Below are positions 1-64,000 of a DNA stretch of 64,000 bases, piece by piece. Made by a program: the position numbers and the translations under genes. Location: positions 114,696,440 through 114,760,439 of the forward strand of contig CM077147.1 of NCBI GenBank assembly GCA_039583875.1. Reading direction: 5' to 3'. Every line of letters starts with the position of its first letter. Within the stretch, counting starts at the first letter, position 1. This DNA comes from Platanthera guangdongensis. Lineage: Eukaryota; Streptophyta; Magnoliopsida; Asparagales; Orchidaceae. The notes beneath the pieces were generated by a model. That model was not told where the DNA came from and ran no database searches. It saw nothing but the letters and a program-made list of their open reading frames with translations.

Positions 1-959
1 AGCATCTGACAACAATGTAGTGGCAGATTCAATAAAGGTTCTATTTTTCCTTTCAGCTACTTCATTTTGTTGAGGAGTTCTAGGAGCTGAGAAAGTATGC
101 CTGATCCCTTCACTCTGACAGAACTCTTTCATAAGAAGAGAATCAAACTCTATCCCATGATCACTTCTGATCAGGGCAATGTGAGTATTGAACTCAATCT
201 GTATACATTTGAGAAACTCTGTCAAACACTTAAAGTTATCAGACTTCTTCCTTAGAAAGAACACCCATGTGAATCTAGAGAAGTCATCTATAACTACTAA
301 AGTGTAAGATTTCCCTCCAAGGCATTGTACTGTAATGGGTCCAAAAAGATCCATGTGCAACAGATACAATATCCTAGGTGAATCACTCTTATTAAGTGAC
401 TTAAAAATATTTTTAGTTTGCTTGCCTAATTGACAAGCCTTGCAGAGTCCTTCCTTCTTGTAGGGGCCAGAAGGTAGTCCTCTAACAAGGTTGTCCTTGG
501 ATATCCTAGCAATAGTTCTAAGGTTTAAGTGTCCTAGTCTCTTATGCCATAAAATATTAGGTCTACAAACAGAAGTGAATAGGCAAATGTCTACATCTGT
601 TGAAAGAAAATCTACTAGATAGATGTTACCTTTCCTTTTACCTGTCAACACAGTTGTGTTGTACTCTGACTTGATCTTGCATAAAGCTTTGCTGAAAGTC
701 ATCTGGTAGCCTTCATCACATAGCTGACTGATGGTTATCAAATTGTGCTTCAGTCCTTCAACATAAGCTACCTTCTTGAATGTTACTGTCCCAATCTGGA
801 CTACACCATATCCTTTAGTTTGTTCAAAGTTTGAATCACCAAAAATAACTTTGGGTCCAAGCTTGGCTTTAAAGGATGTGAGGTTGTCCTTGTTTCCTGT
901 CATGTGCTTTGAGCACCTACTATCCAAGTACCATTGTTGGTTTGATGTTGGATAGGTCT
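1..959 (-). pseudogene. pol: Element A pol fragment: protease start and integrase N-terminal half
   Basis: Reading leftwards, the fragment starts just after gag with a copia protease-type motif around 925-910, where Asp-Ser-Gly reads Asp-Ser-Arg. It continues through the gag-pre-integrase region to the zinc-binding His-His-Cys-Cys motif of integrase (Trp-His-Lys-Arg-Leu-Gly-His near 550, Cys-x2-Cys near 450-440) and ends in the integrase core. No long start-to-stop frame is open here, so the copy is decayed. It keeps an 18-codon segment (about 490-543) that element B has lost. The segment holds the second zinc-binding His, so A shows the ancestral state at this site. The rest of pol is outside the window. 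Confidence 0.8.
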
Positions 960-979
960 TCACCTGCACATAAAATAAT

Positions 980-2987
980 TCATTTGTTTTTGACCCAGTT
1001 TACCTTGGGCCTAGGTTGATAACCTTTAAACTCAGAAATGAAAGACATCCCAGGTTGACTCTTATAACCTTCAGGATGATATCTCCTTGGAGGTATTATC
1101 CATTCAGTATAAGGGTTAAAGCTTTGGGATGAAGGACCCCTAGGATTGGATTTTGATTTGCCCTTGAAGGAATTTCCAGAGCTCTGATCTCTGTTCGACG
1201 ATCGTGGAGCTGCGTTCGACGATCTTGGGTCAGATCGTCGAGCTCCGTTCGACGGTCGATTGTGGAAGAGTTCAGGAATTAGAGATCGTCGACCTGAGTT
1301 CGATGATTTTGCTTGAGATCGTCGATCTGCGTTCGGCGATCGTCGAGCTCCGTTCGACGATTTCTGCTGGAACTTAGTTTTCTTAGGCATATCAGAATTT
1401 TTCCTAGCTACCTCTACAGCTCCCTTCCCTTTATCAGAAATGAACTTGATTGGGGTTGTTAGAACTATAGGTTGGCTGGATGAAGCACCCAAGCCCAGTG
1501 TACTATTAAATCTGGAGTTCACTGTGCTTGTGAAGCCTTATACTTCTCCCATTAAGGGATTCTTCAAGCTTCTTGGCCTCTGATAGCTCACCTTTCAGTG
1601 AAGCTATCTGCTCCCTACAGCACTCCAACTCCTTGGAGAGCTTGAGGTTTTCTGACTTTAAGATATTATGTTCAGATAGATGATTTCTGAGAGAGGTAAT
1701 TTCTTTCTCAGATTTTAGTAAGTCTAAACATAATGCTTTAAACTCAGATTTAAAGTCCTCTGAATTAAAATCAAAAGAACTGATTACCTAGTCTTCTTCA
1801 AGTTGAGTCTCTGAGTCTGACTCTTACTCTTCTTCATCTGAATTGTGGTGAGAGGCATTGATTGTCATCATGCAGAACTCCTTCTCTTCTGCATCATCTT
1901 CATCATCACTAGTGCTGGATGAGGCTTCTGACTCCTCTTCAGTCTCACTCCAGGATTCAGCAACAAACCCCTTCCTTGTGTGTTTGTTCTTGCTTGAGGA
2001 GGGTCTGCCATTGCCATTTTTCTTGAAGTCTTTCTCCTTTCTTCTTTCTTTCTTGTCCCTTCTGTCCTTGTTTTTGTTCTCTAGACAGTCAGGTACAATG
2101 TGCCCTGGTTTCCTGCAACCAAAGCAAACAATTTCTTTATTTTTAGACTTATCATACCTTAGCTTATCATGCTCTTTGTATGATCTACTTCTGAAGTCCT
2201 TTCTGGCCATCTTGTAAAATCATTTAGCCAATAGACTGAGCAGTTCATCATTGCCTGTAACTTTGTCTTCAGGATGATCTTCAGTTGCTTTGAAAGCTAT
2301 TGTCTTCTCTTTTCTTGTGGCTGGTGAGGTAGCATTCTGTTCTTCTTCTCTATTTTTGATTAGCAGCTCATAAGATTTGAGCTTGCCCAAAAGAGCTTCT
2401 GTGGTGATCTAATTCAAACTTCTGGCATTTTTGATTGGCCAGATTCTTGAGTCTCAAGTGCTTGGGAAGCACATTTGGATTTTATCATTAAGTTCAGTCA
2501 GTGAGATCTTCTTATCCAAAGTCTTTTGTTCATTGACTATCAGACTGAGTCTATTATACATATCTCCAACTGACTCAGCTTCTCCCTTCTTGAAATTCTC
2601 ATATTGGGATATGAGGTGGGATCTCCTGTCCTTTCTTTCATCAGCTGAGCCTGAGACTATTTCAGAGAGTTTATCCCAGATTTCCTTTGCTGAATTACAT
2701 TCAGCCACCTTTTGAAAGATGTCATCAGACATGGTCCGGGCTAAGATATTCATAGCCTTTGCATCAGCTACCTTCCACTTCTTGATATCAGCATCTGTTC
2801 CTGATGGAGGTGGAATAGCATTTGTGCTTGTGTTCTCTGGAGGTCTTGGACAGACTGTCAAAACAGAATTAAAAATATCCTCGTCAATAGAATTCATGTA
2901 TAATCTAATCCTTGCTTTCCAAAGTGCAAACTTGGATAGATTACACACTGGAGGTCTGGTGCTAGCATAATCTTTGTTTTGGGCCAT
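980..2987 (-). pseudogene. gag: Element A gag, inactivated
   Basis: This is the Gag polyprotein of a copia element, start codon at 2987-2985. By alignment with the intact gag of element B it has a UBN2-type Gag domain, a CCHC knuckle (CFGCRKPGHIVPDC), an acidic serine-rich stretch, a coiled coil and a C-terminal Arg/Ser-rich repeat. The copy is broken by several nonsense changes relative to B: a Trp codon to TGA near 2454, Glu to TAG near 2410, Arg to TGA near 2222, Ser to TAA at the end of the 128-codon block near 1824, and Gln to TAG near 1788. An 8-nt deletion near 1535 shifts the frame. Three open blocks remain (2987-2454, 2210-1824, 1522-980). The last block contains the family word as coding sequence (1195-1370). 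Confidence 0.9.
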
Positions 2988-3118: not shown

Positions 3119-4681
3119 TGAAAGTGCAGCTAGATCTGAAATACTCTAGAGGAGGGGTGAATAGAGTATGGTGCTTAAAAACTTTTTACAACAGTTGTTG
3201 TAATCTGAGTGAACAGGGAAGCAAATATTAAATCTAATCACAGAAACTATCTAATCACAAAGTAACCTACAAAATAAATTAATTACAGATCCTAACTAAT
3301 CACAGATCAATCACAGCCAGAAATAAAAATATAGACAAGCAAGCCAGAAGACACAAGGAGCTATAGTGGTTCCCCTAAACTTGGGTACATCCACTCTTCT
3401 ACCACCCTAGGTAGGAATCCATTGCAGGATAAGTTGATCAGGTGTCCTGGGCTCTAATGAGCTTTTGATAAGGTGCTCAAAAACCAAATCAGATTTTTTG
3501 ATCAGGTGTCTTGCCACCAATGAGCTTTTGATAAGGTGCTCGAAAACCAAGCACAAACGTTTGAAGGGAGTTTGAAAAACCCTTTACAGAGATGGGGATG
3601 AGAGAGTTATGGAAGTCTTCTCTTTCTCAAAGCAGCTGAGAAGACTATGTGGATTTTGATGTTGTCAAAGCTCCCCCTGAGTTCTTGAGATGTTCAGGAA
3701 ATGAAGCTTTGCTGTAGGGTGATAGGCCTTCAGAACTTTAATCTCCAGCAATTGATGATTTCAGCAACAGCTGAAATGTTAGGTGTCTGGAGTCTTTGAA
3801 TGATGTTGGCCTTGAACACTTGAATCAAAGGAGATCTGAAGATTTCAGATTTGTTGATCTCCTTTGGTGTGGGTGTTCTAGTTGTTGTTAAGAAAGATGT
3901 TGTTCCAGAGAATGTTTTCTTCTTGTTCTTCTTGTTTTGCTTATCTGTGCTGTGTGTGAGAGAGATTCAGAAAACTTTTGTTTTATTCCCTGGTTCTGAA
4001 TAGAAAATGATCCTCTGTCAAGAATAGTCGTTGGCCTGTCATTAATTGCATCCTTAACTGCAAATGTCTTCTGAGGGAAAGTCCAAAGAAACATTCCTTG
4101 ATAATCCCTTGAAACTTGGTCCAGAAATAAATGAAAACGGCTACAAAATCTTCTGAATTAATTGCTGAATAACTCCTTAACTGTTCTGAATTTGAATCTT
4201 GAAAAACATTGAACTCTTCAGAAAAACGTCGAACTGAGCTCTACTTTCGTCGAACTGAACTCAGCGATTTGGACTTAGACAGCAATAGAGATCATCGATC
4301 TGAGCTCAACTATCGTCGAACTGAGCTCAGAGATAGAGAATCAATACTGAGTCAAGATCGTCGAACTGAGCTCGAAGATCGTCGAATGGAGTTTGACGAT
4401 TTGTTGAAGCCGAGCTCAGCGATCATCAAATGGAGTTCGACGATCCGTCGAATTTGAGCTAGACGATCGTCGATTGGAGCTCGACGATTCGTCATACTGA
4501 GCTCGACGATATGACTTAGTCTCCAAACTGAAAAACCTTGGTCTTGAGGTCAGCTTCCAAACCTAACTACTAACCCTTAGACTCAATTCTAGTTGACCTT
4601 TAGATCTATACAGGAGGTCAAAAACAGGTTTCCTAAATACATAGTGATCCTGACCTAAATTAGTAATAGGGTGTTCCAACA
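3119..4681 (-). repeat. Element A 5' LTR (1563 bp)
   Basis: The LTR begins on the minus strand with TGTTGGAACACCC (4681) and ends with GCACTTTCA (3119), matching both LTRs of element B. It contains a cluster of the family word (TCGTCGAACTGAGCTCGACGATC-like units) at about 4205-4510 and the conserved stem-loop block at 3361-3400 near its 3' end. The partner LTR is outside the window. Confidence 0.92.
4205..4510. repeat. Family word cluster in LTR of element A
   Basis: About a dozen degenerate copies of TCGTCGAACTGAGCTC and GACGATCGTCGA in both orientations, irregularly spaced. The same word occurs in the LTRs, gag and pol-env spacer of element B. Confidence 0.85.
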
Positions 4682-5601: not shown

Positions 5602-8317
5602 TGTAACACCCCAGTTTTGCAAGAGGTTCAGTCTGCAGTTCTGGAAATTTTTGGGTTTCTGGCAGGATGCACATGGCCTGCGACACGGGCGTGTCGCAGG
5701 GCGTGTCGAGGCCATGTCGACACTCGGCCCAAGTGTCGACACTTTCGCTCGACAAAGTGTCGAGAGTGGGGCACACGGCCTGCGACACGGGCGTGTCGCA
5801 GGGCGTGTCGAGGCCGTGTCGACACTCGGCCCAAGTGTCGACACTTTCGCTCGACAAAGTGTCAAGAGTGGGGCACACGGCCTGCGACACGGGCGTGTCG
5901 CAGGGCGTGTCGAGGCTGTATCGACACTCGGCCCAAGTGTCGACACTTTCGCTCGACAAAGTGTCGAGAGTGGGGCACACGGCCTGCAACACGGGCGTGT
6001 CGCAGGGCGTGTCGACAGTCGTCCCAAGTGTCGACACTTTTGCTCGACAAGGTGTCGAGACTGGGGCACAGGGCCTATGACACGGGCGTGTTACAGGGCG
6101 TGTCCCGCTTGGTCGACGATCTTCGCTCGACGTTTTTCTGCGGTGTCGACACAAAGCCTGTCGACGGGTGTCGAGACTTGGCACACGGCTTGGGACACGG
6201 GCGTGTCCCAGGCCGTGTCAGCTCTCGGGTTGGTTTCGGGGCCGTGTTGTTGGAGGCACACGGTCGGCCACATGGCCGTGTCACTGGGGACACGGGCGTG
6301 TCGGGTTGAACACGGGCGTGTCGGATGCCCGTGTGCGATTCCAGGAGCATCGATTTGAGACGGCGAATGAGGCACGCGGCCCTGGACACGGGCGTGTGCC
6401 AGGCCGTGTTCGGCCCAGATCTTCTATTTTCCAGGCGAATCGCGGCCATTATTTTTCTGGTTTTGGGATCTAACGGTTCATGCCATCTCTTGGGAAGTTA
6501 AGTCCGATTTTAGGGTTGGAAACCCTCATTGTTTTCCAAGTCTTCTCTTTCTAAGTTCTTGAGAAAAGCTAGAGCAAGGAGGAGGAAGAAGAAGGTCTTG
6601 GGCTATAGGAACGGTTTCAGAGCTCCAAATCGCGAACCGAGTCCGTATCCGTGAAGCTTAGATCGTTGCGAAGATTTCCATCCGGCTATTTTTCCATGGC
6701 AAGGAAGAGGAGTCGGAAGGTAACGACATCTCTCCTCTCGGTCCTTAGGATGCATGTACTAGCGTCATTTATTTTCTTTCTCTCTAATTTTTGGGCACCA
6801 AGCTCTCAAATGAGAGGGGTTTTGGTTTTCCAAAGTTCAAGAGGAACCTCCGGGTTGATTGAGTCCGTCCCTGGCATATTTTTGCATTAGAGATCCGCTT
6901 CTCTAGTGGATTAGGCATGGTGGGTGAAGCCGTGGTCGCGACCGTTAGTCTGACTCGGTGATGTTGCATACGAACTTAGGGATTCGTAGAGATTTCCGTT
7001 GCGGCAAGATGCCGTTTATGTTGTGGTGGTGATTGTCCCGTTTGCTCGAAAAGGTACGTGTAGTCGAACCCGGACAAGGTTAGCTCCTCGTGGCAGTAGA
7101 TGGTTTCCTTGAGGGACAAGGTTAGCTCCGTATGAGTTGGAGATGGTTTCCTTGGTGGATAAGGTTAGCTCCGCACGAGTTGGAGATGGTTTCCTTGGTG
7201 CGCGGGAACGCTGCAGTACAACGATGGATTATGATGTACTTAGTCTTGGTTTGTGATGTGCCAAGGAGTGGCTATGTCTCCGTGGTCGGCTGGCTATCCC
7301 GTAACATGTGCGTCATGTGTGGAGAGTGTCCCGGCGAGACTAGTCCCCTTCTGTGAGACTGACGAGAACGCCAAGCTTGGGGCAAGCCCGGGCAAAGAGG
7401 CCATGAGCGGGTGGGGTCCAGCAAGGCTTCTTAGAATTGGTTGGTCTGTGTTTGTTGGAATCCTGACATGAGACGTCAGAGCTTGTAGGCAAGCCCGGGG
7501 CTAAGCCCACGAGCGGGTGGGGCCTTGGCAAGATTTCCTTGTGGCGGCCTTTACGCCGTTTGAGGGAGAGGTGTCTCCCTTAGTGTTTGCGGCTTTATGC
7601 CAATGGGGAAATGTGAGTACCCAAATGATGTGATGTTGTGCTAGATGCATACGCAGTAGGGTACCTTGGGTGAAGCCCGGGTGTTGCATTCATGTTGCAT
7701 AGTAGGCCCTTTCTTTATATGCTCAACCAATAGAGAACATGTTTGATGATTGAGACATCCAAGCCTGTTTTAAATATTCTTCTGTTTATAGCTATTTTTA
7801 TTACATATGAAGTGCTGACTTGCAGGTTGGAGGGTTCCCCGGGGTCCGTTAGGGGCGGCCGGGAGGAGATGTGTCGTTACACAGTTTGAGGTCAGCCTTT
7901 GCTGACCCACGTTACTAATAATTTTTACAGGGCAAGGATCGCATGCAGGAGCTAGCACGCCGGACAAAAAGGCCTAAGCCCATGAAGTGTTTTTACCTCT
8001 TTTGTAGCACTGCATTTATGATGATGTTGTTTGAGACTCTTTTGTCCGGCTTGCATGCCGAGGTAGACTAGGAGTGCTGAGCACATTCATGATTGATGTA
8101 TTATGTCTCTTTTGGACACTTGATGTTAGGCCTAAAGGCCATTTGTTTTACTCTTTAGTGCTGGATAACTTCTAGTCATGTTTGTTTCTGCTGTGTTGTG
8201 CAAGTGTTTTGAGTTTGGGTAGTTATATCAACTTATAATACTAAAGCTGTGGCGTTCGTATGCTGTGGGGCCCCGGCCGGGCCCATATTATACGTCCACT
8301 ACAGGGGAGGTGTTATA
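5602..8317 (+). repeat. Element C 5' LTR (2716 bp)
   Basis: Starts TGTAACACCCCAG and ends GGGGAGGTGTTATA (the 3' LTR ends TGTTACA, so one end base has changed). It carries a tandem array of a 102-bp unit near the start (about 5667-6070), more GACACGGGCGTGTC words to about 6420, and the GGGGCCCCGGCCGG block near the end that element D shares. Short reading frames in this LTR are by-products of the repeat length and not genes. Confidence 0.95.
5667..6130. repeat. 102-bp tandem repeat in 5' LTR of element C
   Basis: About four copies with starts spaced 102 bases apart (for example 5772, 5874, 5976). Each unit holds the inverted-repeat words GACACGGGCGTGTC and TGTCGACA several times. Because 102 is a multiple of 3, most frames stay open across the array. 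Confidence 0.92.
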
Positions 8318-8320
8318 ATT

Positions 8321-8331
8321 TGGTATCAGAG
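8321..8331 (+). other. Element C primer-binding site
   Basis: TGGTATCAGAG, complementary to the 3' end of initiator Met-tRNA, 3 bases after the 5' LTR. Confidence 0.93.
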
Positions 8332-8381
8332 GGAGGTTAGATTCAAGGTCAGTGCATAGAGAAGTTATCCACATAAGAGTA

Positions 8382-9618
8382 ATGCGGGACCGTGAGTGTC
8401 CTTATGTTTTAGTCTTGAGATTGAAGACTAATCCCTTATTTCTTGTTTTCCTGAAGAGTGCAAGCAACGAGGCGGGCACCTCAAGAGTAAGGGATGATCT
8501 CTCGGCGAGCAGTGCTACTGCTCCAGGTCTTCTGGGCACGGGTGTAAACCCGGCTGACTTCTGCCGTATGCTTGCAGAAGCGATGGTGGCAGCGCAAGCG
8601 GCGGCTGCAGCCCAAGTAGCAACCCCTGCTACACCAGACACGGCGACGGCCGTGCCAGGCGGAGAAGCCAGGCGAGTGGAGCCTTTGGCAGAAAGGGTGG
8701 TGGTAGGACATGGAGACCGACACATGAAGTACTTCCTGTGTTTCCATCCCCCGTCTTTCAAGGGTGTTGGAATGCCAACGGATGCGAAGGATTGGTGTGT
8801 TCGTATTCAAGAACTGTTAAGGGCGGCAGAGACGCCAGAGGAAAAGAAAGCTGAGTATGCGGCGTTCATGTTGGAAGGAGATGCCAAATTGTGGTGGGTG
8901 AGCCATAGCGGCCGCCAGTTCCCGGGACGCACCCCGTCAGTGGAAGAGTTTGGGGACGCTTTTCTTAAGAGGTATATTCCAGTTTCAACACGGTTGGCCC
9001 TGCAGAGGCAGTTTCTGCATCTAATGCAGCGAGACAAAATGGTGGACGAATACGTGCAAGAGTTCACCCGTTTGGGTCGTTATGCGGGAACGACAATGGC
9101 GGATGATGTAGAGAGGGATAACCTCTTCTACCAAGGGTTGAGGGAGAATCTGAGACAGCCCCTCATCTCCATGAAGAGGGCGGGATTTAATGAGCTAGTT
9201 GAAGCCGCCAGGAGTTTGGAGAATGATCTGGAGTGAACCCAGCGTCGAAAGGGTTTTACTCCCAAGCATGGGGAAGGGAAGCCCTCCCAATCTCATGTAA
9301 AGTCTGATGGGAGCAGGTGGAGGAGGAAGCCTCACACTTCCAGATCGGGTGAGAGGAGCACTTGGACGCCTGGGGGTTCTCACTCTAGGGGACCGCCGAC
9401 GTGTTACAACTGCGGGAAGGTTGGGCACATAGCCCGTGCTTGTCAGCAAGGGGGAGCGAGGCAAGAGTCAAAGCAGGAGCAGTCTGTGCGCTCGGGCCCC
9501 AGTGCTACAGAGAAAGGAAAGATGGCGGAGTCGAGCGCTTCTCGGTTCCAACCGGAGCAACCAAGGGCTTACAACGTTGGACAGCAGGAAGCGATCTGTC
9601 AAACCGATGTGGTGACAG
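8382..9618 (+). pseudogene. gag: Element C gag with CCHC zinc knuckle, one nonsense codon
   Basis: This is the Gag polyprotein of a chromovirus. The first ATG in the frame is 8382; the frame itself opens a little upstream. A retrotransposon-Gag (capsid) domain covers about residues 110-275, with the typical segments EGDAKLWW, FLKRYIP and DEYVQEFTRLGRYA. A TGA at 9234-9236 interrupts the frame. The same frame then continues through a basic linker to one CCHC knuckle ([14 protein letters not shown], about 9400-9441) and on to 9618, where a GT splice-donor-like site lies. Without splicing the frame ends at a TAA near 9633. Gag would form the virus-like particle in the cytoplasm. Confidence 0.88.
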
Positions 9619-9692
9619 GTATGAAGAAAATTTAAGTTTGCATTTGTGCTTCATACTTTTAGACCCCCTTTTTGTGAGATGTCTTGTTGTAG
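9619..9692 (+). other. Putative 74-nt GT-AG intron between gag and protease of element C
   Basis: The donor is CAG|GTATGA and the acceptor TTGTTGTAG|GC, with a T-rich tract before the acceptor. The gag frame ends in phase 1 at 9618 and the protease frame begins in the matching phase at 9693, so removal of exactly these 74 bases joins gag to protease in one frame and forms a glycine codon across the junction. The intervening bases contain an in-frame stop. Splicing is inferred from fit; I have no transcript data. Confidence 0.65.
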
Positions 9693-10816
9693 GCTTCGTG
9701 TTAGTTTCCGGATACCCAGCTAGGGTATTGTTCGATACGGGAGCATCGCACTCCTTTCTTGCGGAGAGCTTCGTCCGAAAAATAGGAGTTGGGTCTTTCT
9801 CGTCGGGAGCAGAGCTGAAAGTGCGCATGCCCAATGGGTCATCTATGACCACCGGGGTTAAAGGGCGCATTTGTTGGGAGCTAGACGGAGTTGCCTTTGT
9901 TTTGGAAGCAGCAGTGTTACCATTAGTAGAGTTCGATGTCATTTTGGGCATGGACTGGCTTGCAGAGCAGCGTGCCAACATTGACTATTTATCCAAGGTA
10001 GTGACCCTAAAGAGTAAGGGGCAATCGGAAGTCAAATTTGTGGGCCTTTGTAGAGTAGCCCATTCCCTAATTACGGCCATGCAAATGATGCAGGCGGTTA
10101 ACCAGGGAGGTGTGGCGCTGGTAGCGTTGTTGGAGGTTCGTCTCTCCCAGCTATCTATTGAGGAAGTGCCAGTGGTGGCAGAGTTCAAGGATGTGTTTCC
10201 GGATGAACTTCCTGGAGCGCCTCCTCGGCGGGAGATCGACTTCTCGATCGAGTTAGTGTCGGAGGCTAGACCGGTGTCGCGTCCCCCTTTTAGGATGGCA
10301 CCAAAGGAGTTGGCGGAACTTAAGGTACAGTTACAGGAACTGTTGGAGCAAGGATATATTAGACCCAGTTCTTCACCGTGGAGCGCACCTGTGTTGTTTG
10401 TTAAGAAGAAAGACGGTAGCATGCGCCTATGCATAGACTACCGAGAGCTGAATAAATTGACCGTCAAGAATAAGTATCCGATTCCTCAGATAGACGATTT
10501 GTTTGACCAATTGGTGGGGTCAATGGTATATTCGAAGTTGGACTTGAAGTCAGGCTACTATCAGCTGCGAATTCGAGATGAGGACATACCCAAAACTGCC
10601 TTTGGTACAAGGTATGGGCACTTTGAGTTTACGGTGATGCCGTTCGGGTTGACGAACGCACCATCGGTGTTCATGGATCTGATGAATCGAGTGTTTCGGG
10701 ATTACTTGGATTCGTTTGTGGTTGTCTTCATTGATGACATCTTGGTGTACTCCAAGTCTGAAGTGGAGCATGAGACCCACTTGAGAGTGGTCCTGCAAGT
10801 GTTGAGGGAGAACTAA
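9693..10816 (+). pseudogene. pol: Element C protease and reverse transcriptase, ends at a nonsense codon
   Basis: The aspartic protease motif FDTGAS lies at 9731-9748. Reverse transcriptase follows with the usual gypsy blocks: [43 protein letters not shown], and the catalytic FIDDI at about 10727-10741, intact. A TAA at 10814-10816 stops the frame within the RT thumb region; the downstream frame continues directly, so this is a simple nonsense change. Protease would mature the Gag-Pol precursor and RT would copy the element RNA. Confidence 0.92.
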
Positions 10817-11497
10817 TTGTTTGCAAAGTTCTCAAAGTGCGAGTTCTGGTTAGCCAAGGTGGCGTTTTTGGGCCACGTGATTAGTGGGGAAGGGGTGGCA
10901 GTGGATCCAGCGAAAGTGGAGGCCATCAGAGATTGGCCGGTGTTGAGGACCATGGCGGAAGTCCGAAGTTTTCTTGGACTAGCCGGGTACTATAGGAGAT
11001 TCGTGGAGAATTTCTCGAAGATAGCTCTACCCCTCACCTCACTCACTCGCAAAGACCATAAGTTTGTGTGGACCCAAGAGTGCGGCCAAGCATTTGAGGC
11101 CCTGAAGGAGAGGCTTATGATGGCTCCAATCCTGAGTTTACCGCAAGGGACCGATGGATTTCAGATTTTCAGTGACGCATCGGGATGCGGTTTGGGTTGC
11201 GTGTTAGTGCAGCATGGCAAGGTGATAGCTTTTGGGTCTAGACAGCTGAAACCTCATGAGATGAATTACCCCGTCCATGACTTGGAGTTGGCGGCGGTAA
11301 TCTTTGCGTTGAAAATATGGCGACACTATGTGTATGGCGCAAGGGTGGAGATCTTCACGAACCATATAAGCCTGAAGTATCTCTTGGATCAGAAGGACTT
11401 GAACATGCGGCAACGCAGATGGGTTGAGTTTCTTGGAGACTACGAAGTGGCGATTCAGTATACGCCGGTAAAGCCAATGTGGTGGCGGACGCGTTGA
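10817..11497 (+). pseudogene. pol: Element C RT thumb and RNase H
   Basis: This continues the same frame as the upstream RT: the [11 protein letters not shown] thumb segment, then RNase H with [10 protein letters not shown] (first catalytic Asp), the [17 protein letters not shown] helix and the region before integrase. It ends because one G is missing around 11464-11468 in the run before the conserved VVADALSR segment. That segment is intact in the next frame. RNase H would remove the RNA strand during replication. Confidence 0.9.
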
Positions 11498-12560
11498 GTA
11501 GAAAGTACTCGGGGCAAGGAAATTGGATCGAGCTCATGATAAGCGGTTGGACGGGAATGGGAGTCCCTTGGATTGGAATGTGTTGCCAGAGGCGAGTCTA
11601 GCGTGGCTCAGTTGAACTGGATTGAAGTGCAAAACGACTTATCCGATCGTATTCGGGAAGCGACTCGATTGGATGTGGAGTTTCAACCTTTTGTGTTGGA
11701 GGCTCAAAAGGGCGAGAGCAGCGCCTAGGAGATGATTGGGGGAATCTTGAGAAAGGATGGAAGGGTTTGTGTACCGCAGTTTGGCAATCTCCTTGAGGAG
11801 TTGATGTTTGAGGCTCACTTCTCAAAGTACTCCATCCACCCGGGCAGTACAAAGATGTACTTGGATATGAAGAAATCCTTTTGGTGGCCGGGGTTGAAGC
11901 GAGATGTAGCTTTGTATGTGAGTCGTTGCCAAACATGTGCCTTGGTGAAGGCCGAATGTCAGAAACCGGGCGGGTTCCTGAAGCCCCTTCCAATTCCTGA
12001 GTGGAAATTTGAGGACATCTCCATGGACTTTGTGCATGGTTTGCCTAGATCGCAGCATGGTAATGATGCTATTTGGGTGATCGTGGATCGCCTAACCAAG
12101 GTGGCTCACTTCATCCCAAATCGGAAAGAGGACAGCGTGGAGAAGCTGGTGGAGTTGTATGTTCGCAACATTGTGCGACTGCACGGAGTTCCTAAGAGCA
12201 TAGTCAGTGATCGAGATGGACGGTTTACGTCTAAGGACTGGAGATTGGTTCAGAAGAGCTTGGGCACGAAGCTAAAGTTCAGTACGACGTTCCATCCTCA
12301 AACTGATGGGCAAACGGAGAGAACGAATCGTACTATGGAAGATATGTTGAGAATGTGCGTTCTTGATTTCGGCAAGAGGTGCGAGGATCACCTCTTCATG
12401 GTAGAATTTGCGTACAACAATAGTTTTCAAGCAAGCATAAAAAATGGCGTCATACGAAGCTTTGTATGGGAGGCGGTGTCGAACGCCAATGTCTTGGGCA
12501 GAGGCGGGAGACACCAAACTGTTGGGAAAGGACGGGATGGTTGATGCGTGTGAGTTGGTA
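11498..12560 (+). pseudogene. pol: Element C integrase, zinc-binding and catalytic core domains
   Basis: After a linker with a TAG at 11726-11728, the frame from 11732 encodes the integrase zinc-binding region (H...H, then CQTCALVKAEC near 11930) and the catalytic core: DFVHGLP, IWVIVDRLTKVAHFIP, the second Asp in IVSDRDGRF and the E-containing HPQTDGQTERTNRTMEDMLR. An extra A in the run 12439-12444 shifts the frame shortly after the core; the last part of this block is out of frame. Confidence 0.88.
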
Positions 12561-13076
12561 CGGACCATCCAAGAGCGTATGAAGGTGGCGCAAGACAGGC
12601 AAGCAAAATATTTTAATGCTCGTCACCGAAAGTTGGAATTTGTAGTTGGTGATTGGGTTTATCTGAAGGTCAAGCCGTTCAAAGGCGTCTCACGGATTCG
12701 CCGACTCAAGAAGCTGAGTCCAAGGTTTTTGGTTCCTTTTGAAGTTGTTGAGCGGGTAGGAGAAGCAGCTTATCGGTTGGCGCTGTCCGCAGATTTGAGT
12801 GGAATACATGACGTCTTCCACGTCTCCGTTTTGAGGAAAGCCTTGGTGGAGGCTAGCGTGGTGATTGAGCCGGCATCGGTGCCGATTGAGGAAGACTTGA
12901 GGACGCGAGTTCTTCCAATTGCTATAGAGGATTCGGAGACTCGGCAGTTGCGGAATAAAGAAGTCAAACTGGTGAAAGTTCGATGGGACAACTGCGGTCG
13001 TGAGGAGTTCTCTTGGGAACGAGAACAGGCCATGCTAGAAGATTATCCAGAACTCTTCATGTCAGGTACAATTTAA
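12444..13076 (+). pseudogene. pol: Element C integrase C-terminal domain with chromodomain-like tail
   Basis: From the shifted frame: the GPY/F-type region (YLKVKPFKGVSRIRRLKKLSPRF, GEAAYRLALSADLSGIHDVFHVS) is followed by a C-terminal segment VKVRWDNCGREEFSWERE that resembles the degenerate chromodomain of Tekay/Del elements. Such tails direct integration to particular chromatin in the family. It ends at a TAA at 13074-13076, about 45 bases before the polypurine tract. Element D carries the same tail. Confidence 0.85.
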
Positions 13077-13120
13077 GTTTTGTACCCTTTTGTTTTGAAA
13101 TTTCGGGACGAAATTCTGTT

Positions 13121-13134
13121 AAGTGGGGGAGAGT
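13121..13134 (+). other. Element C polypurine tract
   Basis: AAGTGGGGGAGAGT directly before the 3' LTR; primer site for plus-strand DNA synthesis. Confidence 0.88.
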
Positions 13135-15862
13135 TGTAACACCCCAGTTTTGCAAAAGCTTCAGTCTGCAGTTCTGGAAATTTTTGGGTTTCTGGCAGGA
13201 TGCACACGGCCTGCGACACGGGCGTGTCGCAGGGCGTATCGAGGCCGTGTCGACACTCGGCCCAAGTGTCGACACTTTCGCTCGACAAAGTGTCGAGAGT
13301 GGGGGCAGACGGCCTGCGACACGGGCGTGTCGCATGGCGTGTCGAGGCCGTGTCGACACTCGGCCCAAGTGTCGACACTTTCGCTCGACAAAGTGTCGAG
13401 AGTGGGGCATACGGCCTGCGACACGGGCGTGTCGCAGGGCGTGTCGAGGCTGTGTCGACACTCGGCCCAAGTGTCGACACTTTCGCTCGACAAAGTGTCG
13501 AGAGTGGGGCACACGGCCTGTGACACGGGCGTGTCGCAGGGCGTGTCGAGGCCGTGTCGACACTCGTCCCAAGTGTCGACACTTTTGCTTGACAAGGTGT
13601 CGAGACTGGGGCACATGGCCTGTGACACGGGCGTGTCACAGGGCGTGTCCCGCTTTGTCAACGATCTTTGCTCGACGTTTTTCCGCGGTGTCGACACAAA
13701 GCCTGTCGACGGGTGTCGAGACTTGGCACACGGCTTGGGACACGGGCGTGTCCCAGGCCGTGTCAGCTCTCGGGTTGGTTTCGGGGCCGTGTTGTTGGAG
13801 GCACACGGCCGGCCACACGGCCGTGTCACTCTGGACAAGGGCGTGTTGGGTTGAACACGGGCGTGTCGGATGCCCGTGTGCGATTCCAGGCGCGTCGATT
13901 TGAGACGGCGAATGAGGCACACGGCCCTGGACACGGGCGTGTGCCAGGCCGTGTTCGGCACAGATCTTCTATTTTCCATGCGAATCGCGGCCATTCTTTT
14001 TCTGATTTTGGGATCTAACGTTTCAGGACATCTCTTGGGAAGTTAAGTCCGATTTTAGGGTTGGAAACCCTCATTGTTTTCCAAGTCTTCTCTTTCTAAG
14101 TTCTTGAGAAAAGCTAGAGCAAGGAGGAAGAAGAAGAAGGTCTTGGGCTGTAGGAAGGGTTTCGGAGCTCCAAATCGCGAACCGAGTCCGGATCCATGAA
14201 GCTTAGATCGTTGCGAAGATTTCCATCCGGCTATTTTGCCATGGCAAGGAAGAGGAGTCGGAAGGTAACGACATCTCTCCTCTCGGTCCTTAGGATGCAT
14301 GTACTAGCATCATTTATTTTCTTTCTCTCTAATTTTTGGGCACCAAACTCTCAAATGAGAGGGGTTTTGGTTTGCCAAGGTTCAAGAGGAACCTCCGGGT
14401 TGATTGAGTCCGTCCTCGGCATATTTTTGCATTAGAGATCCGCTTCGCTAGTGGATTAGGCATGGTGGGTGAAGCCGTGGTCGCGACCGTTAGTCCGACT
14501 CGGTGATGTTGCATACGAACTTAGGGATTCGTAGAGATTTCCGTTGCGGCAAGATGTCGTTTGTGTTGTGGTGGTGATTGTCCCGTTTGCTTGAAAAGGT
14601 ACGTGTAGTCGAACCCGGACAAGGTTAGCTCCTCGTGGCGGTAGATGGTTTCCTTGAGGGACAAGGTTAGCTCTGTATGAGTTGGAGATGGTTTCCTTGG
14701 TGGATAAGGTTAGCTCCGCACGAGTTGGAGATGGTTTCCTTGGAGCGCGGGAACGCTGCAGTACAAAGAGGGATTACGATGTACTTAGTCTTGGTTTGTG
14801 ATGTGCCAAGGAGTGGCTATGTCTCCGTGGTCGGCTGGCTATCCCGTTCCATGTGCGTCATGTGTGGAGAGTGTCCCGGCGAGACTAGTCCCCTTCTGTG
14901 AGACTGACGAGAATGCCAAGCTTGGGGCAAGCCCGGGCAAAGAGGCCATGAGCGGGTGGGGTCCAGCAAGGCTTCTTAGAATCGGTCGGTCTGTGTTTGT
15001 TGGAATCCTGACATGAGACGTCAAAGCTTGTAGGCAAGCCCGGGGCTAAGCCCACGAGCGGGTGGGGCCTTGGCAAGATTTCCTTGTGGCGGCCTGTGCG
15101 CCGTTTGAGGGAGAGGTGTCTCCCTTAGTGTTTGCGACTTTATGCCAATGGGGAAATGTGAGTACCCAAATGATGTGATGTTGTGCTAGATGCATACGCA
15201 GTAGGGTACCTTGGGTGAAGCCCGGGTGTTGCATTCATGTTGCATAGTAGGCCCTTTCTTTATATGCTCAAACAATAGAGAACATGTTTGATGATTGAGA
15301 CATCCAAGCCTGTTTTAAATGTTCTTCTGTTTATAGCTATTTTTATTGCATATGAAGTGCTGACTTGCAGGTTGGAGGGTTCCCCGGGGTCCGTTAGGGG
15401 CGGCCGGGAGGAGATGTGTTGTTACACAGTTTGAGGTCAGCCTTTGCTGATCCACGGTACTAATAATTTTTACAGGGCAAGGATCGCATGCGGGAGCTAG
15501 CACGCCGGACAAAAAGGCCTAAGCCCATGAAGTGTTTTTCCCTCCTTTGTAGCACTACATTTATGATGATGTTGTTTTAGACTCTTTTGTCCGGCTTGCA
15601 TGCCGAGGTAGACTAGGAGTGCTGAGCACATTCATGATTGATGTATTATGTCTCTTTTGGACACTTGATGTTAGGCCTAAAGGCCATTTGTTTTACTCTT
15701 TAGTGCTGGATAACTTCTAGTCCTGTTTGTTTCCGCTGTGTTGTGAAAGTGTTTTGAGTTTGGGTAGTTATATCAACTTATAATACTAAAGCTGTGGCGT
15801 TCGTATGCTGTGGGGCCCCGGCCGGACCCATATTATACGTCCACTACAGGGGAGGTGTTACA
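13135..15862 (+). repeat. Element C 3' LTR (2728 bp)
   Basis: Starts TGTAACACCCCAG and ends GGGGAGGTGTTACA. It is nearly identical to 5602-8317, with scattered single-base differences. The 102-bp array occupies about 13200-13610. Confidence 0.95.
13200..13640. repeat. 102-bp tandem repeat in 3' LTR of element C
   Basis: Four copies plus a partial, the same unit as in the 5' LTR, with private point differences. Holds GACACGGGCGTGTC and TGTCGACA words. Confidence 0.92.
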
Positions 15863-15867
15863 CCGCT
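15863..15867. other. Target-site duplication of element C, right copy
   Basis: CCGCT directly after TGTTACA; matches 5597-5601. Confidence 0.9.
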
Positions 15868-16497
15868 GGGCTCTCCAGCACCTGCAATGGGACAGTCACC
15901 CAACTGTGGAAAACAGAGGCAATGGTCAGCACTCAGCTGACCAAATTATAACGACCCTACCACTTCTCTCGGGGCAGCGGTAAGCTTCCCTATAGGCATA
16001 GAAATTCACAAGCATGTGTATATGTCATACAATGTGCTCTCACGCACATACATTCCATCATAATCGTCAGCCATCCGGCCCGACGATCCATGCACTCAGG
16101 GCACATTCTTGGTGTACCTGCGAACCAATTGCCCACCACTGTATCAGGGACGCAACTCAACAACAATTCACTTGAGCATTGACTCCATGGCGTGTAGCCG
16201 GAGTTTTATAGTCTTAGTGAACCGGGATTAGCCCGTAGCCCCCCATTGTATCACGGCGCGTAGGCCTAAGACTCTTGATATGCGCTCCAACAGACCGCAC
16301 TTTCAGGTCTCACGTCGGACGAACATAACGCAGGTCGGATCCTCCACCCCCTATTGCTAAAATCGCCTTGCCATCACCGAGTACATCGTACTCGCGGCTA
16401 AATAAAGGCGCGGGTAGGTCTCACCGATCCTGTTTTGGCATTCAAGCCGGGGTATTTTCCTTACACCCATTTTCTATCACACATCAGCGGATCATTC

Positions 16498-16795
16498 CTG
16501 GGCACACCAGTACTTCCTGTTACTCTCTTCACAGGTGGACAATGCAAATATCACAAATGTCAGTGGTCTTTTCTGGTTACCACACCAGTACTTCCTATTA
16601 CTCCATTTCACAGGTACCACCTATGAACATTAAGCATTACAAAGGATATTTCTTAGAATTCCAATCCAGTACTTCCTGCTATTTCCTTCACAGGTAGAAC
16701 CCAACAGCACAAGCAACACAAGCATTATACGGGTATTTTCTTGGACTACCACTTCAATACTTCCAGCTACTTCCTTTCACAGATCTAACCCGTCG
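16498..16795. repeat. Degenerate tandem repeat, about 75-90 bp units, four copies
   Basis: Units begin CC(A)CACCAGTACTTCC and contain a CTTCACAGG-like box. Starts are near 16503, 16580, 16660 and 16748. Copies differ at many positions. Confidence 0.7.
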
Positions 16796-16898
16796 ACTCC
16801 TAAAGTATGCGTTTATCATGGAGTGTTCTCAGGTTCGTATGCAACATCACCAATCTAGACAAACCTGTCCAGATGTGCTTTAAAAAACATGCCTATTC

Positions 16899-16903
16899 CG
16901 TAC
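16899..16903. other. Target-site duplication of element B, left copy
   Basis: CGTAC directly before TGTTGGAAC; repeated at 28936-28940. Confidence 0.92.
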
Positions 16904-18464: not shown

Positions 18465-18581
18465 GAGGTTAGTTAAACATACCACACCTTGGTGGTTGCA
18501 CAGGCTAACACCTGAACACAAAGATTCCTAGTTAGATCTGCTTGCTGTAGATTTTATTATTAGATTATTTCTTCACAAATC

Positions 18582-40623: not shown

Positions 40624-40660
40624 CCTTCTTGATTTGTGAAGAATCCAACGGGGTCTGCGC

Positions 40661-44410: not shown

Positions 44411-44676
44411 AAGAAGGCTTTTTCTTACTTCTATTCAAATTTCTTTATTCGCAACCCGAGGCTTATACCGCCACATTCAAAGGTATGCTAGCTTAATTTA
44501 CTTCTTAATCATTGATAAATTAGGGTTATATTAATAGGAAAAGTCCGAATTTACTTTCTGCACGAATTCAAAATCCTTTCACTCGAGAAAAAGAGAAGTC
44601 TCTTCGTCTTCCGCGACTGTCGCAGAGCCCGCGCCGTCCGCTTCCCCGCACCGAATTTCTTTCAACTCTCTGCATC

Positions 44677-49022: not shown

Positions 49023-49157
49023 AAATGTAATCATTTTAATTTTTCGATCACTTTATTTTTCTCCTTTTTTGTTGTGTGTGAGTGTACGAGTTAGGTTTTT
49101 GTTGTTTTCCTTTTTTATGTAAAGTGCGTGTGTGTATGAGATAGCTGTTACTGCTTT

Positions 49158-52273: not shown

Positions 52274-53047
52274 GTATCTACCGGTATACTCTTCGAACCA
52301 CTTGGAAACTCGATGAAATTTACTTGGGCAATTCCAAACAGATCGATCATGTCACTCAACATTTGGCAAAAGAGATACTCAACGAATTCGACGAGTATCG
52401 GCTAGTATACTTGATGAATTCAAAGAGTATCAGCTAGTAGACTCGACTCTTGTTTAAGTGATATTCAACGAATATCACTTAGAGAAAACCAGAGAAGTAA
52501 AGTGAAGATGACTCGATGAATTCATCTTGTATCGACATGTATATTCGATGAGTATCGGTTGATACACTCGACGTGTATACAGTTTATGACTTTTACTTAA
52601 CTAATTTCCAGGATTCAAAGATTATTCTCTAAGTAATTATGATGAATTCGATGTGTGCCAGTAAGCATACACGATGAATTCAATGAGTATTCATGAGTAT
52701 ACTCGACGAATTCGACGAGTATTCGTTGCTATACTCGACGAATTTTACTTAGAGAAAATATGCTCTTCTGAAAGCCGCAACGTGATCTTCTTGGATTCCT
52801 ATAATGTACTTGAAGTAGAAGTACACCCCAATAGAGAGATTACATATGAGTTAACACCTTGTCATACACAATGAAGGATTACATTATATAGTCGTGTGTT
52901 TCAAGACCCACTATAACCTGACATTGGGTCGTACTTAGATATCGTCCTGCAAGCCCATAATTAGAAAATAACATCAAATACAACATTAATTCATCTTATT
53001 TCGAGGGACACTTCTTCAAATCAGAGTTATTATAGATACAATACCCA
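52274..53047 (-). repeat. Element G LTR, 5' portion
   Basis: Word cluster at 52274-52760: CTCGACGAATTCGACGAG, TACTCGATGAATTC and variants. The LTR start TGGGTATTGTATC is at 53047. With the other piece the LTR is about 1.66 kb. Confidence 0.85.
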
Positions 53048-61870: not shown

Positions 61871-61882
61871 AGGAACCACCTA

Positions 61883-64000
61883 TGTAACATCCCATTTCCA
61901 ACTAGACCCCTAAGAATGGTTTTGGCCATGACTAGGTCATGACAAACCCTAGGAAGCCAGTAATGAGCCAAGAGATAGGGGACAGAAAGGTGGGAGATCA
62001 TCATGGTCTGCAAATAGTAGAACTCTAAACAATGGTGTAGGATGACCATGGGCCACACCCTAACCCCAAGACCCTACCACAACACCCCTAATATCTTGGG
62101 AGGCCCATTAGAGCCAAAAGGACCCATTAGGGTCAACCCAAGAGGCTCAGTTGACCAAGGTCAACCCTAGCCCTAAATGGGTCAAACTAGCCTACTTAGG
62201 GTCAATTGACCTACTCCTAGCCTAGAGGACCCCACCTGAGCCCTCCTAACCCTAAAGAGAGGTCAATGGGTCACTAAGGGCACATTGGGGCCAGCCCTAG
62301 AGGCCAGGTTGACCTAGGTCAACTCAACCTCCTACTCTGGTCAAAGTACCCTTGCTAAGGGTATGTGACCTCCAGAGGGCAGGGTAACCCTACATAACCC
62401 TACCTAGACCCTAGGGGAAGCCAATGGGTCACCCAGGACCCATAGGGGTCAACCCAATTGGTCATGTTGACCCAAGTCAACTCTAGCCCTAAAATGGTCA
62501 AAATGCCCTTACCAAGGAGCATGTGACCCCCAAGATGCCCAACCAACCCTACTCAAGTCTTCCTAGAACTTAAGGGAGTCCAATGGGCCACTAAAAACCC
62601 AATGGGGTCAACCCAGATGGTCAAATTGACCAGGTCAACCCTCATTTAGGTCAAGTCAAACCTAGCCCAAAAAGGACTAACCCAAGCCCAAGCCACTTCT
62701 CCCTTAGGCTAACCCCACCCCCATGACCATCATAATCAAGTGGGCTGCATTTAGCTTGTGAGGTTGACTAGTCAACCAGAGGTGACTAGGAGAGAGAAAG
62801 GAGCTCCCCTCCATGATAATGGAGGAGAGAGAAATTGAGGAAGAGGAAGGGGAAGTGCAAGGCTGGCCAAGGGAGGCTAACAGCCACCATTTACGGCTGC
62901 AATCAACTCCTCTAGGGGAGAGGAGTTGATTCCAGCCGTTTCCCGGCCACCAAGGGATGGGTTCAGCCCCCCTCCACTCTACCCGAGCCACACCTTTAAT
63001 GGTGTTAATGGCCATTGAAGAACCAGCCTCCCCTCTCCCCCATTTGCCATTTAAACACCATCAGGGGGCCAAGGGGATCATATTAGAGCGTTTACCTGGA
63101 TGAGACGAGCCATCCCACTGTGCAGTTGTATAAGCCGAGCGCCGCCGCCGTCGTCAATGGCATCCCGCCGCTCCTCTCGCATCCAGGCCGCCAGGAAGGT
63201 CCTCCTCCTCTCCTTAACTCGCGGGTAGATCATAGGGCTCTTTAGGTTTAAGATTCGGGCTCAATTGAGCCCGATCAAATCAAGGATTCCTCATGGTTTC
63301 GGCAAGAAATCTTCTTGCTATAACAGTCGGAAAATGCCTCTCCGGCGGCAGAGCCGCCGCCTGGCGATAGCCACCACCTCAACGGAGGTGTTGGTGGCGG
63401 TGGACGGCGGGGGAAGGGGCTGGATCGCCGGCGGCAAGGCTTGGAAATGGCTCCAGGCGGGATGGATCCTGGCCGTTGGCTCATTGAAGAAGACGACGGG
63501 ATTCCGTTGAATCTGCGTCAAGATTCGTGCCTCCCCTGATTTCAAACTATAGGATTCATTTTATATTCATGTGTATTATGTCACAGATTTTGATATATTT
63601 GGTTTTAAATTTTAAAAATACTTAGGGCCCTCTGCAGGAAAGGTCACCAACACAAAAGTTGTAGCCCTTTGAGTCTATTGCATTTTAAAATTTGTTTGAA
63701 CCCATTTGGTTGCATGGTCTGACCAGGGCACCCATTTTGGTGGGACATACCCTTAGGGCTAGGCAGTAATTAAACTGAGTTCCCACACTTCATCCCTAGT
63801 CCAAATCAGTTGAAATTTTTACAGGGAGTCTACCCTAGCTATACCTAGAGCTGGTCTAAAAATGGGAAGTTTTGGAGAAAATATTTCTATAGTTTTTATA
63901 AAAATTTAATAATCATTAAATAAATTAAATAGGTGCCCTAAACACCTCCAAACCCTCCCAAATTTTGGTGAGTGGTCCCTGGGTTCATTTTAGATATCTG
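61883..64000 (+). repeat. LTR K: start of a long gypsy-like LTR, runs off the window
   Basis: TGTAACATCCCATTTCC resembles the TGTAACACCCC start of elements C and D. From 62096 to 62680 the words GGTCAACCC, GTTGACC and AACCCTAGCC recur every 15-40 bases. After 63120 there is a CCGCC-rich stretch and AT-rich sequence. No gene is supported; the frames at 62704-63015 and 63265-63545 lack any recognisable domain. Whether this is a 5' LTR, a 3' LTR or a solo LTR cannot be told here. Confidence 0.6.

Follow-up and report, generated by a model that had tools for sequence, protein, structure and literature searches.

Family-specific word arrays in plant LTR retrotransposons and the concentration of CpG within them in a Sirevirus-type copia family

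The retrotransposons crowded into the 64-kb window, the whole stretch of DNA analysed here, carry dense clusters of short repeated words, and the question they raise is whether each family has a word of its own and what such words might be for. The original prediction was that at least seven families do, that the words are mostly self-complementary, and that they occupy the same places in each element. Family-specific arrays far above shuffled expectation are present in the copia elements A/B, F and G, which we treat as Sirevirus-type, and in the gypsy elements C/D. The predicted likeness of word style between copia and gypsy elements is borne out. K also has a dense word of its own; the word of E is dispersed and that of H has two copies.

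By exact count in the window, GACACGGGCGTGTC occurs 16 times (11 on the forward strand, 5 on the reverse), every copy lying within C or D LTRs; TGTCGACA occurs 18 times, 17 of them in C LTRs and one in E; and ACTCGAGT occurs 16 times, only in F, with nine copies in the LTR and seven before env. The 11 copies of CCGCGCGG comprise two in the E LTRs (35465 and 43478), eight scattered through the E interior and one outside E, while CTCGACGAATTC occurs once, ACGTCAAC twice on the forward strand in H and once on the reverse strand outside it, and GGTCAAC 22 times with both strands summed, nine of these in the K region. The 14-mer TCGACGATCGTCGA, originally given as the A/B word, is found once, at 29717 in D, and nowhere in A/B; the actual A/B unit is the spaced dyad ATCGTCGAAC-N3-GTTCGACGAT. 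Against an order-2 Markov expectation, each word being taken singly, ATCGTCGA stands at 14 observed versus 0.09 expected in A and 24 versus 0.10 in B, GACACGCC at 8 versus 0.11 in D, and ACTCGAGT at 16 versus 0.16 in F; the best words of K, E and, for comparison, I are GGTCAACC (6 versus 0.38), CAAGCCGC (12 versus 0.91) and AAGATGAC (5 versus 0.24), and no word of H went beyond p 1.6e-3 in these single-word tests. A table of 12 words by 20 partly overlapping regions, scored against 200 dinucleotide shuffles, is nearly block-diagonal, the off-diagonal entries at the floor of P 0.005 being ATCGTCGA with two counts in D (one site) and TTGAC in E (26 versus 13.5). ACTCGA is common to F and G.

The density of palindromes relative to shuffles, named beforehand as the refuting check, gave a mixed outcome across families. 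Exact palindromes are in excess in the C LTR (10-mers, z 5.4), the F region (8-mers, z 5.6), the K region (12-mers, z 4.6) and the G region (8-mers, z 3.4, in a stretch that takes in a block with inverted repeats), and 8-mers give z 1.2 in the A LTR, 1.8 in the B LTR, 1.0 in D, 0.7 in the E LTR and 1.2 in H. For imperfect dyads (8-bp arms with 7 matches and a loop of at most 6), coverage against shuffles is high in the C LTR (z 10.2), in one part of the D LTR (6.4; the other part 1.9), in K (5.1), in the gag and env clusters of B (3.7 and 3.8) and in the word part of G (2.8; the other part -0.9), marginal in the B and F LTRs (2.1 and 2.0), and without excess in the A LTR (0.9), the E LTR (0.3), H (0.3 and 0.2) and the F env cluster (0.6). 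Some word-free stretches also score, namely the rest of B gag (3.7), the rest of E (3.5), C gag-pol (3.2), I (2.9) and B pol (2.6), and others show no excess (B env -2.6, F env -0.2, D pol 0.8, E gag 0.6). Given the block-diagonal word table and the mixed palindrome test, the words track families in the window, but the uniform claim of each family having mostly self-complementary words in the same places overstates the case. The word table and imperfect-dyad coverage led us to reject E and H as members of this group of word families; in E, a gypsy gag-bearing element (35286..43960, forward), CCGCGCGG is enriched but dispersed and is not counted as an array. K (62118..62642, forward) consists of ~158-bp repeats rich in TTGACC/GGTCAA, with a gag like that of E upstream. 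The expectation that all words except that of K contain CpG held, the TTGACC array of K being CpG-free.

The layout is clearest in B, a forward-strand copia element flanked on both sides by CGTAC. Its 5' LTR (16904..18450) carries a word cluster at 17078..17362 made of the dyads described above, and its 3' LTR a word cluster at 27562..27846. The gag ORF (18564..20597; Retrotran_gag_2, as in A) is nearly CpG-free outside an in-gag cluster upstream of pol (20210..20395), where SSNxxRRS-type repeats are written with CGA and TCG codons. Beyond the reverse transcriptase ORF (22182..23714; RVT_2), another cluster lies in the pol/env gap (23800..24065), ending ~30 bp before a TATAWA match at 24094, with the env ATG downstream at 24215. 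The env-like region (24200..26785) is split into two ORFs by an in-frame stop (24914-24916); the first has a Transposase_32 match below its cut-off, and a structure prediction of the env N-terminal part from five sequences (mean pLDDT 50.3) was too poor to judge. A, on the reverse strand, has the corresponding LTR cluster (4220..4515; CpG observed/expected 1.78, versus 0.10 in 3119-4219) and a cluster in reading frame at the gag 3' end (1190..1362; 2.11, versus 0.03 in the rest of gag). Like the repeated motifs (RM) described for Sireviruses, the palindromes sit in the upper LTR and ahead of env. The A/B words have no CGG-CCG core, as is also the case for the exception Tnd-1, and A/B are therefore filed as Sirevirus-type rather than as proven members. 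There is no TATAWA match after the gag cluster or in the B LTR, the A LTR and the 5' and 3' LTRs of B giving only 7-of-8 partial matches. No relatives of the B and C reverse transcriptases were confirmed in viral_contigs.

CpG in B is strikingly confined: 113 of 135 CpGs lie inside the four word clusters, which make up 1,022 of 12,032 bp, and outside them the remaining 22 compare with ~421 expected, CAG/CTG not being depleted. This suggests protein-binding arrays kept by evolution while CpG was lost elsewhere. Codon choice follows the same boundary, as CGA accounts for 10 of 12 Arg codons in the in-gag cluster versus 0 of 34 for CGN elsewhere in gag (Fisher 1.6e-8), and TCG for 8 of 16 Ser codons versus 0 of 71 (Fisher 2.2e-7). 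The in-gag cluster is kept at the nucleotide level. CpG positions differing between A and B are 3 of 52 in the gag cluster versus 5 of 12 outside it (P 0.004), 5 of 63 versus 4 of 9 for the LTR (P 0.011), and 9 of 63 versus 4 of 11 when the B 3' LTR is used (P 0.09). Divergence in the words is no lower than in the spacers between the A and B LTRs (11/173 versus 6/114, P 0.80), between the gags (4/116 versus 4/73, P 0.49) or within the B LTR pair (7/173 versus 7/115, P 0.58), with nine of ten B LTR sites used. CpG islands of vertebrates likewise keep CpG mainly in compact, promoter-linked stretches of CpG-depleted sequence, as A/B do, but here the pattern lies inside one plant retroelement family and is built of repeated dyads.

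Could ordinary decay after insertion account for the CpG loss? Between the B LTRs, 11 of 124 CHG, 7 of 64 CG and 16 of 422 CHH sites have changed, and within the cluster 6 of 63 CpG positions versus 7 of 222 others, so the cluster CpGs of B do decay after insertion and are not immune in that copy. We nevertheless reject ordinary decay as the cause, because the C LTR pair has diverged about as much as that of B and yet has a CpG observed/expected of ~0.8; it is also opposed in B itself, where CHG changes nearly as often as CG and yet CAG/CTG is undepleted in the family.

The words recur outside the LTRs, as had been predicted, in A/B (gag 3' end, and the pol/env gap of B) and in F (pol/env gap); the 14-mer of C or D was not seen again outside the LTR in the window. 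In F the pol/env-gap cluster (44200..44420, forward) is built of ACTCGAGT, and the LTR (47281..49028, forward) has a cluster of 24 sites (47600..48200) upstream of a TATAWA match at 48317. G, a reverse-strand copia LTR, has ATACTCGTCGAATTCGTCGAGTAT-like words (52274..52760), again upstream of TATAWA matches (51101/51099); with two matches in the F LTR and four among the matches listed in G, these count as consensus matches only. CpG is not confined in F and G as it is in A/B (observed/expected 0.52 and 0.82 overall). The gypsy element C (5602..15863, forward; LTRs ~2.7 kb, CCGCT on both flanks) matches gag, protease, reverse transcriptase, RNase H and integrase; after the integrase, where a chromovirus would have its chromodomain, the sole domain match in 12441-13076 is SH3_Tf2-1, 'Tekay-like' being the name used in the original prediction. 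Its 5' LTR array (5670..6420) is built on a 102-bp tandem unit that contains both GACACGGGCGTGTC and GTGTCGACAC, which inflates the word count of C, and the 3' LTR array lies at 13202..13764; there is no TATAWA match in the C LTR. D, on the reverse strand, matches reverse transcriptase, RNase H and the integrase zinc domain, and its LTR cluster, with GACACGGGCGTGTC, lies at 29390..29800; a further stretch, presumed to be LTR (15864..16903), has been separated by the nesting of B and C. C and D have the same word although the alignable part of their LTRs is only ~62% alike. The translated C array, used as a protein query, found no relative among 7,991 candidates scored.

We consider it probable, from position and geometry, that the words are binding sites of dimeric DNA-binding proteins, arrayed at the promoters of the LTRs and of env. 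Among 46 half-sites of A/B, nine convergent pairs are exactly 13 bp apart, and for the six such pairs of B alone, none of 5,000 simulations was as extreme. Successive words lie ~20-24 bp apart in F; in the A/B LTRs the interval is 21-22 or ~44-46 bp. The pitch of F and the A/B LTRs is ~21-22 bp. With every listed site and a simple null of uniform steps, pitch is detected in the LTRs of F (P 0.001), A (P 0.0005) and B (P 0.0035), in F env (P 0.03) and, at P 0.04-0.05, in A and B gag, and not in B env (P 0.18); leaving out one weak site each, 17287 among the ten of the B LTR and 44325 among the twelve of F env, gives P 0.002 for F env. The period that fits the A/B LTRs best is 11.0, not 10.5, and tandem duplication would also yield a period. 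Of the roles proposed earlier, binding sites fit best, on position, fixed dyad geometry, pitch and nucleotide retention in gag, and an RNA hairpin selected for pairing finds no support in arm covariation. On the binding-site reading, proteins of the host or the element would recognise specific sequences, probably as dimers, and the words would be their half-sites and dyads. These would be arrayed at LTR promoters and, in env-bearing copia families, also at what is likely an internal promoter of env, and each family would have drifted to its own specificity; in A/B, array occupancy in source copies might have kept words and CpGs while CpG vanished elsewhere in the element. Protein binding, activation of transcription and shielding from methylation are what we infer. 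A more speculative extension, which we hold doubtful, is that each family's dyad arrays serve as an anti-silencing address, at which a matched and perhaps element-encoded protein would keep the CpG islets in front of every cistron free of methylation, in source copies with gene-body-like, CG-only methylation that lose CpG but not CHG elsewhere.

It is equally unlikely, in our judgement, that transcripts of the arrays fold into hairpins that supply small-RNA silencing or have a role in packaging or translation. All 13 word-cluster pieces examined, taken from A-D, F and G, are more stable when folded than 60 shuffles (z -2.1 to -11.7), and PMC10760457, citing Bousios 2016, reports that small RNAs are in excess where maize Sireviruses have their palindrome clusters. 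The stability is, however, found on both strands, as with any palindrome, and some word-free controls fold well too (C pol z -2.5 and -3.6, B gag -2.2). Compensatory change within palindromes, a check proposed at the outset, did not appear: the arms show no positive covariation in A/B (23 of 49 listed sites, the 3' LTR copies of A and B being omitted as homologous; 167/230 pairs versus 174 +/- 2.8 shuffled) or in F (36 sites; 177/360 versus 182 +/- 6.2), in sets chosen by total match and therefore biased against covariation. The anti-correlation of A/B arms (P 0.9988) is created by that selection and is not claimed.

Less likely still is local amplification, in which slippage or unequal crossing-over spreads a functionless word. 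The 102-bp array of C and the 21-bp periods in F env and A/B speak for it, as does a slight likeness of F LTR spacers (0.333 versus 0.274 +/- 0.007 in shuffles), from which some shared origin by duplication seems likely. But the F LTR words are conserved and their spacers mostly not, the A/B word is found at three distinct locations, of which one is in reading frame with codons kept, and the CpG concentration is left unexplained. That the gag cluster is kept for an RS-rich peptide, with the LTR and env words unrelated, is very improbable in spite of matching SSNxDRRS-type repeats in two gag relatives, of which one comes from the orchid Platanthera, as CGN and TCG codons in gag are confined to the cluster and identical nucleotides are found again in the non-coding clusters.

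Palindromic RM boxes are known from Sirevirus LTRs and the region before env (Bousios et al., 2010, PMC2829016), and A/B, F and G extend this known kind: as described there, family-specific palindromic motifs occur in high copy in the upper LTR as well as ahead of the env-like gene, coincide with CpG islands and have a TATA box downstream (here in F and G), exceptions to the last being reported. The words here differ in having no CGG-CCG core, as Tnd-1 in that paper, in the extra array inside gag, and in the near absence of CpG elsewhere in A/B. That paper also calls the motifs Sirevirus-specific and absent from classic retrotransposons, whereas similar arrays occur here in gypsy C/D. Against the open-licence literature searched, the in-gag array, the CpG concentration of B, the word spacing and the lack of arm covariation are new here. 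The VANDAL/VANC system (PMC5735166, PMC10398659), as those papers present it, is alike in its arrays of short motifs, specific to a transposon family and lying in non-coding DNA, which evolve by tandem repetition and differ between related families; here such arrays are confirmed. There, however, a transposon-encoded protein binds motifs in one orientation and induces methylation loss, whereas here LTR retroelements have inverted dyads and mixed orientations. Should the words prove to be protein addresses, the CpG concentration, together with the array in the gag frame, would record in the sequence alone which DNA of the founder copies was occupied or unmethylated, and this would offer a direct route to retrotransposon anti-silencing in plants and to testing why Sirevirus palindromes exist. 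In sunflower SIRE elements, CG methylation is described as dropping dramatically in the interior while CHG stays high (PMC12844716); a lack of CpG sites such as we describe may be part of the reason for that drop.

Word variants searched as text in open-licence literature gave no plant paper among the matches listed. As for the suggested exchange of words between families, its basis comes down to one exact 14-mer in D and cores common to copia families. The D 14-mer (29717), a single site, was rejected as an instance; G carries both TACTCG, the F core, and TCGTCGA, the A/B core, and such common cores may reflect descent.

Self-comparison, open reading frames and Pfam matches resolve a nested set of LTR retrotransposons in the window, for which we keep the family letters of the original prediction and assign coordinates here. 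A (1–4682, minus strand, cut off by the window edge, gag present) and B (16904–28935, plus strand, with gag, RT and an env-like region) form one copia family with 1.5-kb LTRs. The gypsy element C (5602–15863) has LTRs of 2.7 kb, and D, on the minus strand, is related to it (DNA identity ~69% in the RT/RNase H region). B and C, flanked by CGTAC and CCGCT respectively, both appear to be inserted in the 3' LTR of D; we infer this nesting from the flanking sequences together with the match between 5199–5410 and 34341–34552. E (35286–43960) combines a gypsy gag with an antisense ORF matching Transposase_28 (39859–40659, among long minus-strand ORFs at 39315–43194), and in K ~158-bp repeats come after a gag like that of E (24% identity). 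F represents the 3' portion of a copia element, comprising the end of RNase H, env-like ORFs and an LTR at 47281–49028; G is a minus-strand copia LTR, while only fragments of copia elements make up H and I. The G LTR is split at 51242–52273, between its word cluster and a TATA match, by about three direct copies and one inverted partial copy of a ~283-bp unit.

Each family had been expected to carry its own short palindromic, mostly CpG-containing word. When top 8-mers were compared with order-2 Markov expectation, the words proved real and mostly family-specific within this one 64-kb window, to which all word, CpG and geometry results refer: ATCGTCGA occurs 14 times in A (0.09 expected) and 24 times in B (0.10), GTCGACAC and ACACGCCC 14 times each in C (0.24 and 0.23), GACACGCC 8 times in D (0.11), CTCGAGTA and ACTCGAGT 22 and 16 times in F (0.33 and 0.16), and AAGATGAC, the best word of I, 5 times (0.24). 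The table of 12 words by 20 regions, with 200 dinucleotide shuffles, is nearly block-diagonal. The prediction did not hold for H, which has no strong 8-mer against the same model, and in E CCGCGCGG is enriched (9 against 0.3) yet dispersed; palindrome and dyad tests against shuffles gave a mixed outcome. The top words of the stretch labelled G are ACTCGGAG, which F and G share in the 3' part of their LTRs, and others from the 283-bp block. ACTCGGAG/CTCCGAGT recurs as a second word at ~20–24-bp spacing at 48676–48810 (F) and 50596–50730 (G). In K, TTGAC occurs 24 times against 3.6 expected; TTGACC is the plant W-box core. TTGAC-bearing 36–40-bp tandem repeats also lie 3' of gag in E (37612–37898), in a position comparable to that of the TTGACC repeats of K.

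In B a word cluster lies ahead of every cistron: in the 5' LTR (17078–17362) before gag, in the 3' end of gag (20210–20395) before pol, and in the pol/env gap (23800–24065) before env, the last followed by a TATAWA match at 24094. Directly 5' of the env ATG, TTTTTGCAG (24199–24215) has the look of a splice acceptor. Clusters of F again occupy the LTR (47600–48200) and env (44200–44420) positions. TATAWA follows the LTR cluster in F (48317) and G (51101/51099), there being two matches in the F LTR and at least four in the G LTR (four among the matches listed); the motif scan found none in the B LTR, in the C LTR or 3' of the gag cluster. Bousios 2010 (PMC2829016) reports 13 Sireviruses whose LTRs carry palindromic repeated motifs; these also stand before env where env exists, coincide with CpG islands in many of the 13 and are said to be absent from classic retrotransposons. 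A/B, F and G extend the described kind with new words. In the literature searched we found no description of an in-gag array, of a CpG desert around clusters, or of similar arrays in gypsy elements such as C/D.

In B, 113 of 135 CpGs fall inside the four clusters (the fourth at 27562–27846, 3' LTR), which cover 1,022 of 12,032 bp. Of the remaining 22, one spans a cluster edge and the other 21 are fully outside, where base composition predicts 421; six of the outside CpGs directly follow the env cluster (24084–24135). In A, clusters covering 469 of 4,682 bp hold 53 of 59 CpGs. CpG o/e in B is 0.02–0.06 outside clusters (gag, pol, env, LTR 3' part) versus 1.7–2.0 inside. Outside the gag cluster, CGN makes up 0/34 Arg codons in gag, 2/31 in RT and 0/22 in env2, and NCG 0/261 NCN codons in env2. 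The env ORFs F1 and F3 of F also have no CGN Arg (0/9 and 0/14), and CpG is not emptied everywhere in F/G (o/e 0.80 in the F LTR 3' part, 0.82 in G overall). Since the bodies of C, D and E keep an o/e of 0.68–1.08, the depletion in B is not host-wide. The K repeat block (62100–62660, GC 0.52) has zero CpG in 561 bp, and K gag an o/e of 0.70.

CAG/CTG in B stands at 0.86–1.45 of dinucleotide expectation, and thus there is no CHG loss. C/T differences between the B LTRs affect 7/64 CG, 11/124 CHG and 16/422 CHH sites (Fisher, CHG vs CHH 0.03, CG vs CHG 0.79); within the cluster, 6/63 CpG positions changed after insertion versus 7/222 other positions. Because CHG is not depleted in the family yet shows such changes in the LTR pair, the process that emptied A/B of CpG seems to differ from that acting on the inserted B copy. 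From the sequence we infer CG-only methylation in source copies, or else selection against CpG, as the cause.

The gag word array is in frame and codes for SSNxxRRS-type repeats. In the B cluster Arg is CGA in 10/12 and Ser TCG in 8/16 cases, against no CGN and TCG 0/71 in the rest of gag (Fisher 1.6e-8 and 2.2e-7); the A cluster is alike (CGA 10/12, TCG 9/14). Selection on the peptide alone would give no reason for CpG codons in an otherwise CpG-avoiding gag. The closest named relatives of gag and env are from Platanthera orchids. Three of 23 gag relatives found were aligned as proteins. Repeats of the SSNxDRRS type stand at the matching place in P0004 (52% identity) and in P0005 from Platanthera zijinensis (49%), and P0008 (33%) has none there in the alignment. 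TCGTCGAACNNNGATCGACGATC, one possible coding for SSNxDRRS, is near the word itself.

In A/B the repeated unit takes the form of a spaced dyad, ATCGTCGAAC-N3-GTTCGACGAT, with 9 facing half-site pairs at exactly 13 bp, 6 of them in B alone (0/5,000 simulations as extreme). The dyad of F, ACTCGAGT, is contiguous, preceded by T/C and followed by A, and that of G is ATACTCGTCGAATTCGTCGAGTAT-like, holding the TACTCG of F plus the A/B core TCGTCGA. Three main dyads of G (52274–53047, minus strand, offsets 366, 524, 626) have TGAATTCA in place of CGAATTCG, altered on both sides with symmetry preserved, a number (n=3) too small for a test. The F and G LTRs align over 243 bp at the start (73%) and ~350 bp at the end (69%), the word-bearing middle giving no match in this comparison, so these related families have LTR ends in common and a different word region. 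The 24 sites of the F LTR follow one another at 20–24 bp or about double, and those of the A and B LTRs mostly at 21–22 or 44–46 bp. With every listed site used, the pitch test gave P = 0.001 and 0.03 for F LTR and env, 0.0005, 0.0035 and 0.003 for the A LTR, B LTR and B 3' LTR, 0.04–0.05 for the A and B gag clusters, and 0.18 for the B env cluster; the best period is 10.5–10.8 in F and 10.9–11.0 in the A/B LTRs.

Among mechanisms, we lean towards protein-binding arrays as the best fit to these sequence patterns; the VANC systems (PMC5735166, PMC10398659) are the nearest working analogue. Word divergence between A and B is not below spacer divergence, a comparison of low power since the copies are similar. 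Pairing of the RNA would fit folding beyond shuffles in 13/13 word-cluster pieces of A–D, F and G (z -2.1 to -11.7) and in the K repeats (-4.3, -5.4), with a weaker excess in the E repeats (-2.5, -1.5). A weaker excess also shows in some controls (-2.5 and -3.6 for C pol, -2.2 for the sense strand of B gag), and since the dyad arms gave no covariation in the covariation test, pairing is probably a by-product, which silencing may exploit. Duplication probably contributed to the F array, as its spacers resemble one another modestly more than shuffles do (0.333 vs 0.274 +/- 0.007). The array of C (5386–6309) is built of a 102-bp unit, equal to 34 codons, and so several of its frames stay open on each strand; searching proteins with one translated frame gave nothing. 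An imperfect inverted repeat at 57265–57649 (~77% over ~390 bp) is a possible foldback element.
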